Shown: piece after piece, positions 22,134-25,298 of the stretch
Layout: each line of letters begins with the position of its first letter
Position numbering within the stretch: the stretch's first letter is position 1
From: Chloroflexota bacterium
GTDB taxonomy: Bacteria > Chloroflexota > Dormibacteria > Dormibacterales > Dormibacteraceae
Direction of reading: 5' to 3'
NCBI GenBank assembly: GCA_005880695.1
Contig: VBGR01000034.1
Span: 62,001-126,000, forward strand
DNA length: 64,000 bases
Notes under the pieces: generated by a model
Database searches by the model: none
What the model saw: the letters and a program-made list of their open reading frames with translations, nothing else
Told to the model about the DNA's origin: nothing
Position numbers and translations under genes: made by a program

Positions 22134-22163
22134 TTGACGGCGAACACATGTTCGCCTTAGCCT
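22134..22163 (+). promoter_or_regulatory. SOS-type promoter with LexA box before the MrfA-like helicase
   Basis: A TTGACG -35 (22134-22139) and a TAGCCT -10 (22158-22163) are 18 bases apart. Between them lies CGAACACATGTTCG (22141-22154), a match to the Gram-positive LexA/DinR consensus CGAAC-N4-GTTCG with 6-base perfect arms. A bound LexA would block RNA polymerase. The -10 is 6 bases before the GTG at 22170. Confidence 0.75.
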
Positions 22164-22169
22164 CCCGTG

Positions 22170-24419
22170 GTGGCAGTCCCGCCCTTCGACGCCGCCGCCT
22201 TCCCCGGTGAGATCACCCTCGACCACCTGATCCCGGCCTCGCCGGGCGAGTACGTCGAGCTGCCTCGAGACCTGCCCGAGCCGCTTGCAGACGCCCTCCG
22301 CGCCCGCGGCATCGACCGCCTCTTCTCCCACCAGGCGCAGGCCCGAGCCGCAGCGCTGGCCGGGCGCCACCTGGTCGTCGTGACGCCGACCGCCAGCGGC
22401 AAGACGCTCTGCTACAACCTGCCGGTCCTGGAGCGGATCCTGGCCCGGCCCGAGAGCCGCGCCCTCTACCTCTTCCCGACCAAGGCCTTGGCCCAGGACC
22501 AGATGGTCGAGCTGGGCGAGATGGCGGCCCGGCTGCCGGTGCGCCTCAAGGTGCACACGTACGACGGCGACACTCCCGCCGGGCAGCGGACCGCGATCCG
22601 CGAGGCCGGGCACATCGTCCTCACCAACCCGGACATGCTGCACACTGGGATCCTTCCCCACCACACGCGCTGGCGAAAGCTGTTCTCCGCGCTGGACTAC
22701 GTCGTGGTCGACGAGCTCCACACCTACCGGGGGCTCTTCGGCAGCCAGGTTGCCAACGTGCTCCGCCGGCTGAAACGGATCTGCGAGTTCTACGGGTCCT
22801 CACCGCGCTTCCTCTGCGCCTCGGCTACGATCGCCAACCCACGGCAGCTGGCCGAACGCCTGCTCGAGGAGGAAGACGTCGAGCTGGTGGACAGGAGCGG
22901 AGCGCCGCGCGGCGAGCGCCGGCTCGTCTTCTACAACCCTCCGCTGCTGAACCGAGCGCTCGGAGTCCGGCGCTCGAGCCTGCTCGAAGCCTGCCGGATC
23001 GCCTCCCCCTGGATCAAGCGAGGCGTCCAGACCATCGCCTTCTGCCGGAGCCGGGTCTCCGTCGAGGTGATGCTGAGCTACCTCCAGCAGTCGCTGGCTC
23101 CGTCGCTCGACGCCAGGCGGCGAGTGCGCGGCTACCGGGGCGGCTACCTGCCGCTGCGCAGGCGGGAGATCGAAGCCGGCCTGCGGTCAGGCGAGGTCAC
23201 CTGCGTCGTCTCGACCAACGCCCTCGAGCTCGGCGTCGACATCGGCACCCTGCAGGCGGCGGTCCTGGTCGGGTACCCGGGAACCATCGCCTCGACCTGG
23301 CAGCAGCTGGGCCGGGCGGGCCGCCGTTCGGGCTCGGTCGCGGTCTTCGTCGCGTCCTCCTCGCCGCTCGACCAGTTCATCGTTCGCCACCCTGAGTATT
23401 TCCTCGCCTCCAGCCCCGAGGAGGGCCTGATCGACGCCGACAACCTGCTGGTGCAGGCCGGCCACCTCCAGGCGGCGCTCTTCGAGCTGCCTTTCGCCCA
23501 GGCCGAGCGCTTCGGCCGCGCCGACGTCGGCGGGCTGCTCGACCTTTTCGCCGAGGACGGGGTAGCCAGCCTGTCGGGCGACCGCTGGTACTGGAACAAG
23601 CAGTCGTTCCCGGCTGAAGACGTTTCCCTGCGGCGCATGGCGGCCGACAACGTGGTGATCGTCGACACCTCGGGCACGCGGCCGGAGGTGATCGGCGAGA
23701 TGGACCAGTTCTCGGCGCCGACCATGCTCCACGAGGAGGCGATCTACCTCCAGGAGGGCGCCCAGTACCACGTCGACCGGCTCGACTGGGAGGAGAAGAA
23801 GGCATACGTGCGCCCGGTCGAGGTCGACTACTACACCACCGCGCTCAATTCCTTCTCGGTGCGGGTGCTGGACCGCTTCGGCGGGCCGGACGGCGAGCCG
23901 CTCAACCGGTCGCACGGCGAGGTGAAGCTCACGAGCCTGGCGGCGATGTTCAAGAAGATCCGCTTCCATACCCACGAGAACATCGGATCGGGGCCGATCA
24001 AGCTGCCCGAGCAGACGCTCCACACGACCGCCTACTGGACGAGCCTCGACGACTCGGTCACCCGATCCATCGGCAAGGACGAGATGGAAGCGGGCCTTCA
24101 GGGTCTGGCCCACGCGCTCCGACATGTGGGGTCGCTGCGGCTGATGTGCGACCCGCGCGACCTGGGCGCGGTGGCCGAGGTCCGGTCGCCTTTCACGCGG
24201 CGACCCACCGTCACGGTCTACGAGGTGTACCCAGGAGGCGTCGGCTATGCGGCTCGCCTCTACGAGCTCCATGAGGAGCTGCTGCGCGCAGCCGCCGACC
24301 TGGTCCGGGACTGCCCCTGCCTCTCCGGCTGCCCGTCCTGCATCGGTCCGCTGCACGAGGTCGAAGGCGCAAAAGAGGCATGCCTGCAAATGCTTTACGC
24401 GAACGCCTTGCCAGCCTAA
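22170..24419 (+). CDS. mrfA: MrfA-like DEAD/DEAH-box helicase with C-terminal zinc cluster (DUF1998)
   Basis: The 749-residue superfamily 2 helicase has Walker A TPTASGKTLCYN (about 73-84), DExH box VVVDELHTY, motif III SATIANP, and the second RecA domain ending STNALELGVDIGTL and GRAGRRSGSVAVF. The C-terminal part is the DUF1998/MrfA domain with a four-cysteine cluster, CPCLSGCPSC, some 30 residues from the end. In B. subtilis MrfA and exonuclease MrfB excise mitomycin adducts without UvrA. I chose the second of two GTG codons (22170) because the -10 lies 6 bases upstream; 22167 is the alternative. The 3' end overlaps the mrfB-like gene by 40 bases. Confidence 0.9.
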   Translation: MAVPPFDAAAFPGEITLDHLIPASPGEYVELPRDLPEPLADALRARGIDRLFSHQAQARAAALAGRHLVVVTPTASGKTLCYNLPVLERILARPESRALYLFPTKALAQDQMVELGEMAARLPVRLKVHTYDGDTPAGQRTAIREAGHIVLTNPDMLHTGILPHHTRWRKLFSALDYVVVDELHTYRGLFGSQVANVLRRLKRICEFYGSSPRFLCASATIANPRQLAERLLEEEDVELVDRSGAPRGERRLVFYNPPLLNRALGVRRSSLLEACRIASPWIKRGVQTIAFCRSRVSVEVMLSYLQQSLAPSLDARRRVRGYRGGYLPLRRREIEAGLRSGEVTCVVSTNALELGVDIGTLQAAVLVGYPGTIASTWQQLGRAGRRSGSVAVFVASSSPLDQFIVRHPEYFLASSPEEGLIDADNLLVQAGHLQAALFELPFAQAERFGRADVGGLLDLFAEDGVASLSGDRWYWNKQSFPAEDVSLRRMAADNVVIVDTSGTRPEVIGEMDQFSAPTMLHEEAIYLQEGAQYHVDRLDWEEKKAYVRPVEVDYYTTALNSFSVRVLDRFGGPDGEPLNRSHGEVKLTSLAAMFKKIRFHTHENIGSGPIKLPEQTLHTTAYWTSLDDSVTRSIGKDEMEAGLQGLAHALRHVGSLRLMCDPRDLGAVAEVRSPFTRRPTVTVYEVYPGGVGYAARLYELHEELLRAAADLVRDCPCLSGCPSCIGPLHEVEGAKEACLQMLYANALPA

Positions 24420-25298
24420 CCGGGGGTTCGCAGCCGCGCCCTCGCCACCTGCCGCCGGCCCGGGCCGCGCCAGCCGAGTTCGAACCGGTCGACACTCCCT
24501 TCGGCACGGCCTGGCGCTGGGAGGAGGTGCTGCCCGTCGGGCGCCTGCGGCGCGCGCGGCCGGCCTACGTGCTCGGCGACCTGGCACCCGACGACTTCTG
24601 CTTCGTCGACACCGAGACGACCGGGCTTGCCGGCGGCACCGGGACTTATGCCTTCTGCGCCGCCATCGCAAGGCCTCACGAACTCGGTGTCCAGCTGGTG
24701 CAGCTCTTCCTCCACGAACCCAGCGGTGAGCCGGCCTTTTTATGGGCGCTGGCTCGAGAGCTGGAGCGGACTCCCGGAATGGCCACATACAACGGCGCGG
24801 CCTTCGACCTTCCGCTGCTGCGGACCCGCTGGCTCCTGGCACGGCTTCCGGGCGAGCTGCGACATCGCGGGCGAGCTGATCCCGCAGGCCTACTTCGACC
24901 ACCTCCGCCAGGGCTGGAGCCAGCACCTGCCCGCCGTGCTCGAGCACAACCGGCAGGACGTCCTGAGCCTGCAGCACCTCCTCCACCGCCTGCTCGCCCG
25001 CCTGAACGGCGAGGACCCTTTGATGGAAGGTCTCGACTGGCTCGCCCTGGGACTGCACCTGCACCGGCGTGGCCGCCGGTCTTCAGGCTGGCGAGCGCTG
25101 CGAACGGCCGCCGAACTCGGCGAGCCCCGCGCCGAGCTGATGATCGCCCGGCGCAAGGCGATCCTGCTCGAGTGGCGGCTGCGCCGGCCAGCTGCCGCGC
25201 TCCGGATCGTGGAGGCGGCGCTCGACCGGTTGGGCCCGGAGGCCGACCTCGAGAAGCGCCTGGCCCGGCTCCGAAAACGCGCTAGGCGGTCTGGATGA
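24380..25298 (+). pseudogene. mrfB: MrfB-like DnaQ-family exonuclease, frameshifted with an internal deletion
   Basis: Two reading frames together make an MrfB-type protein. The first, from the ATG at 24380, has exonuclease motif I FVDTETTGLAGGTGTYAF and motif II MATYNGAAFDLPLLRTR, then reads RLPGEL. The next residues, CDIAGELIPQAYFDHLR, and motif III LEHNRQDVLSLQHLL are in the +1 frame and run to 25298 with a TPR-like tail. The switch lies at about 24850-24880, where GGGCGAGCTG occurs twice (24850, 24869). From memory of the family about 40 residues between these points are missing. So this is a deletion plus frameshift or an assembly error. Overlap with the helicase gene matches Bacillus mrfAB. 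Confidence 0.75.

Follow-up and report, generated by a model that had tools for sequence, protein, structure and literature searches.

MrfAB, also called YprAB in Bacillus subtilis, is a pathway that handles mitomycin adducts without UvrABC. Its regulation is not reported in the papers we found: ‘SOS’ and ‘LexA’ are both absent from the text of the MrfB structure paper, as is ‘SOS’ from that of a YprA-family preprint. A literature search, beyond whose reach the key B. subtilis studies lay, returned no paper that presents mrfA/yprA as a member of a LexA regulon, and no study of the SOS response in Dormibacterota.

The Cheo box of Gram-positive LexA (DinR) has the sequence GAACN4GTTC or CGAACRNRYGTTYC (PMC2248561, PMC4234289). 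The sites described below resemble this regulon in operator sequence, in the type of LexA, in the placement of the box within the promoter, and in their targets, which include recA, a translesion mutasome and a yneA-like LysM gene divergent from lexA; unlike it, the Dormibacterota set includes mrfAB. Validated boxes of the same type, among them the recA box TCGAACATCCATTC, appear in the text passages and selected-target table of a study of the S. venezuelae LexA regulon (PMC9380542), and no MrfA-type helicase is named there as a LexA target.

A predicted LexA operator in the mrfA promoter

The source genome is a Ca. Dormibacterota MAG of 2.82 Mb, and the window is the whole stretch of its DNA that was analysed, 64,000 nucleotides long. 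Direct reading of positions 22134–22172 gives the order TTGACG, G, CGAACACATGTTCG, CCT, TAGCCT, CCC, GTG (22167), GTG (22170). The preliminary description had placed a LexA-type box exactly between TTGACG and TAGCCT, and the coordinates confirm this: the –35 and –10 elements are separated by an 18-bp spacer with CGAACACATGTTCG inside (Table 1). The claimed fit to the Gram-positive SOS consensus proved to be exact. The 14-bp box matches CGAACN4GTTCG at every defined position, its complementary arms even extend to 7 bp (GGCGAAC...GTTCGCC), and its centre, ACAT, follows R-N-R-Y as in the Gram-positive consensus. No other exact match occurs in the window, where matches with at most one mismatch number 3 versus 2.9 expected by chance.

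The GTG at 22167 offers an alternative start of mrfA; G001, a relative from the same genus, has AAG there instead. Transcription is expected to begin roughly at the start codon, so the mrfA message would be nearly leaderless. We consider it highly probable that CGAACACATGTTCG is a LexA operator in the spacer of a sigma-70-type mrfA-mrfB promoter and that repression is relieved after damage.

Table 1. Features of the mrfA locus, in positions of the window
Feature	Coordinates	Strand	Remarks
–35 element TTGACG	22134..22139	+	read in the sequence; most relatives have TTG 7–8 bases ahead of the box
LexA operator CGAACACATGTTCG, predicted	22141..22154	+	exact consensus; arms reach 22139–22156; conserved in 35/35 (family), 15/15 (f3), 13/13 (f2)
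–10 element TAGCCT	22158..22163	+	read in the sequence; most relatives have TANNNT 1–3 bases behind the box
mrfA, 3′-5′ DNA helicase, YprA/MrfA type	22170..24419	+	MZB domain PF09369; PDB 6znp, E 6.6e-244
mrfB-type DEDDh exonuclease gene, disrupted	24380..25298	+	overlaps mrfA; out-of-frame deletion of ~110 bases near 24860

The mrfA and mrfB genes

The gene behind the box had been described as coding for an MrfA-like helicase, and this assignment is well borne out. The product matches B. subtilis MrfA (PDB 6znp) over nearly its full length (814.8 bits, E 6.6e-244) and contains DEAD, Helicase_C and MZB domains; the HRQ1 winged helix is matched weakly, and the TIGR03817 helicase model gives 645 bits, under its cut-off of 874. 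The named relatives are Candidatus Dormibacterota or Dormibacteraeota MAGs, the nearest of which, isolate S89_Bin_13, is 98% identical over the available part of MrfA. The locus resembles B. subtilis MrfAB in having a helicase of the same length with an MZB zinc domain and an exonuclease gene directly downstream.

The proposed MrfB-type exonuclease next to mrfA stands as far as its sequence is concerned: the downstream gene matches the MrfB exonuclease structure 8un9 (E 5e-11) and PF13482. The match is, however, split over two frames in the source MAG, so that the pair is not intact there, unlike in B. subtilis. In comparison, the mrfB frame is uninterrupted in G006 and G013 at the place of the ~110-base gap; in G001 the start of mrfB is lost at a contig edge, and the remaining part is open across this region. 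The deletion in the source MAG may be either a genuine lesion or an assembly error. With mrfB broken in the MAG, the two genes of the operon may fail to function together in this strain, unless the assembly is wrong.

The operator may also be genuine and yet control a YprA-family helicase that serves another purpose, such as phage defence or general repair, rather than the repair of mitomycin adducts. The helicases of the DISARM, Dpd and Druantia defence systems belong to the YprA family (PMC12458937), and both the partial matches of the product to the BrxH, DruE and DrmA models and the broken mrfB would be compatible with such a role. Yet the defence models reach at most 145 bits versus 814.8 bits for MrfA (a rough comparison, as the libraries differ), the MrfB-type nuclease gene lies directly downstream, and regulation appears to be shared with SOS repair genes (see below). 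A defence-system identity of the helicase was set aside because the full-length MrfA match is far above any defence model, and we regard a purpose other than adduct repair as unlikely overall.

LexA and its candidate sites in the genome

Control of mrfA by LexA requires a lexA gene of Gram-positive type, and one lexA, of this type, was found in the genome (C93:43587-44189; TIGR00498, E 9.6e-61, above cut-off). Its product has a canonical DNA-binding domain, an S24 domain, a VAAGQPI cleavage region with the A-G site, and the motifs RGDSM and DEATVKR; the Ser and Lys residues of the protease are present.

The bare motif CGAACN4GTTCG occurs 8 times in the whole genome versus 6 times for the reversed control, a non-significant count that makes a lone box unconvincing. 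The box at mrfA is significant because of its promoter context and conservation, not because of the number of motifs. Three other exact boxes, found on C1 at a TnpB start, on C21 ~370 bp before mraZ, and on C104 before an ECF sigma gene, lack a TTGAC/TANNNT frame; they were set aside as chance or unclear. The first of them is a perfect box that overlies the start of an IS605-type TnpB gene (G000 C1:4254-4267; L001), where the promoter frame is not clear and the match may be due to chance.

A composite promoter-operator pattern, TTGACN{2,5}GAACN4GTTC, behaved differently from the bare motif when compared with its reversed version. It gave exactly 5 matches versus 0 for the control in the source genome, and 129 versus 2 in 42 genomes of the family. 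The five sites precede mrfA, a LysM gene, recA (TTGACGTCCAGAACAATTGTTCGTATGGT), the imuA-imuB pair (a RecA-like ImuA and an IMS polymerase), and an orphan gene of ~129 codons. The LysM gene is divergent from lexA; its best NCBIfam match is the SOS division suppressor YneA, yet this match is below cut-off. The same box had been expected at recA, lexA and mutasome genes, and it is indeed found at recA, in the divergent region between lexA and the LysM gene, and at imuA-imuB. For 30 composite-site loci of the family, genes were named by reading their translations against annotated copies of the source genome. Most of these sites are followed by recA, imuA, the LysM gene or mrfA, one by the 129-codon gene and one by a DUF222-type gene.

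Conservation alone cannot name the binding protein, and these sites might in principle belong to another regulator of like specificity, or act as an element of promoter strength, with LexA not controlling mrfA. This explanation seems quite improbable to us, given that the sole LexA match in the genome has a canonical DNA-binding domain, that the same sites occur at recA and beside lexA, which are hallmark LexA targets, and that a palindromic spacer is not needed by sigma-70. LexA is retained here as the predicted regulator of mrfA.

The ~129-codon gene lies near lexA, has no Pfam or NCBIfam match, and carries a full promoter-operator site at G000 C93:41789-41810 (L005 1532-1918). It is followed by a gene for a small protein with a cyclic-nucleotide-binding domain and is also present in a relative (L247); we regard it as a candidate new SOS gene. 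LexA-type boxes were also seen at the starts of DUF222-HNH genes (G000 C27:2633-2646, L004; and L257).

Conservation in Dormibacterota and other Chloroflexota

Relatives keep the box in front of mrfA. A copy with no more than one mismatch was found in 35/35 members of the family, 15/15 of f3, 13/13 of f2 and 6/16 of f4, for which dinucleotide shuffling predicts 0.35, 0.20, 0.10 and 0.15 occurrences, respectively; the compared genomes are related and hence are non-independent trials. When two mismatches are allowed, all 16 genomes of f4 carry it, several as overlapping boxes. The flanks and the upstream genes visibly differ among relatives, while the box persists. Its geometry is near-constant as well (Table 1), the five exceptions in f1 being cases where a second box near the start codon was picked, and among relatives from the family and two sister families the box nearly always lies in the promoter spacer.

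A chance palindrome that happened to fall in a promoter of a GC-rich genome, as the 8 exact genome boxes versus 6 in the reversed control and the chance-level number of one-mismatch matches in the window could suggest, has a negligible probability and is refuted by conservation at mrfA, since the box is present in 63/63 genomes of three families with ~0.65 expected, its distances to the –35 and –10 elements are fixed, and recA and imuA share the composite site.

Boxes at mrfA were also found in other Chloroflexota, namely in f11, f28, f32, f45, f56 and part of f21, often downstream of the likely –10 element; none was seen in the mrfA upstream regions of f8, f13 and f17. Boxes located past the likely –10 element rather than in the spacer, sometimes paired, occur at L272, L275, L277, L280, L281, L288, L291 and L293. 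A second LexA-like box (for example, CGAACATATGTCCG) overlies the likely mrfA ATG, just downstream of the promoter box, in some members of the family, namely L015, L016, L020, L024, L029, L031, L034, L036 and L061, mostly of genus g9.

Proposed regulation of mrfAB

Judging by the operator and its shared use at SOS genes, the SOS response very probably induces mrfA in Dormibacterota. From established LexA biology we infer the course of binding, repression and induction. As long as the DNA is undamaged, a LexA dimer bound to CGAACACATGTTCG would block the access of RNA polymerase to the –35 and –10 elements. Upon DNA damage, RecA filaments would promote self-cleavage of LexA, freeing the operator, and mrfA (with mrfB) would then be transcribed alongside recA, imuA-imuB and the yneA-like gene. 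The 3′-5′ helicase MrfA and the 3′-5′ exonuclease MrfB would excise bulky adducts, presumably such as those formed by mitomycin.

As a LexA-controlled repair operon, mrfAB is probably, though not certainly, new. The conserved operator would place it within the SOS response of an uncultured class of soil bacteria and, probably, of many Bacillales too. The set of sites also provides a first sequence-based view of the putative SOS regulon of Dormibacterota, comprising lexA with the yneA-like gene, recA, imuAB, mrfAB and one orphan gene.

Comparison with Bacillota

The preliminary description had set the locus apart from B. subtilis, where MrfAB was not known as an SOS member. This contrast is blurred by the related one-mismatch box of many Bacillales, and by the B. 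subtilis group itself, whose site is degraded, not absent. In Bacillales, mrfA is often preceded by CGAAC-N4-ATTCG-N-TANAAT, where a box with one mismatch from the consensus (CGAAC-N4-ATTCG) ends one base before the –10 element (e.g. CGAACGTTTATTCGCTAAAAT in Mesobacillus); the cultivable Niallia, Peribacillus and Rossellomorea carry the box CGAACN4ATTCG. The strict Bacillota pattern was found in 29 of 60 mrfA upstream regions versus 0 for the reversed control; by the same pattern, the box is absent upstream of mrfA in the Planococcus and Geobacillus genomes of the sample. Bacillales boxes (L118–L181 and L201–L230) precede the mrfA match by ~90–165 bases. The recA box of B. subtilis, CGAATATGCGTTCG, is of the same type. 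The ATTC half-site also occurs in S. venezuelae, where the recA box TCGAACATCCATTC has been validated by experiment (PMC9380542).

In contrast to the perfect box of the Dormibacterota promoter, the site of the B. subtilis group, CAAACAAATATTCG, has two mismatches, with both half-sites altered. B. subtilis is represented here by L201, the nearest relative sampled, whose MrfA is 96% identical to B. subtilis MrfA from the PDB. SOS control may have gone unnoticed in B. subtilis possibly because the site is degraded to CAAACAAATATTCG, and the difference between the two groups may reflect weakening there rather than gain in Dormibacterota. LexA-controlled mrfAB is likely to be more widely distributed than the preliminary description supposed.

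The boxes of the two groups could conceivably have arisen by convergence. Alternatively, LexA control of mrfAB may be ancient and common to Bacillota and Chloroflexota/Dormibacterota, with mrfAB forming a core SOS repair operon across many soil bacteria, and with the model organism B. subtilis as the exception, where decay left only a weak operator and the link was therefore missed; we hold this reading tentatively, giving it slightly less than even weight. In B. methanolicus, a box (CGAACGCATATTCG) is also located before a gene that was named, from its sequence alone, as a Y-family polymerase gene.
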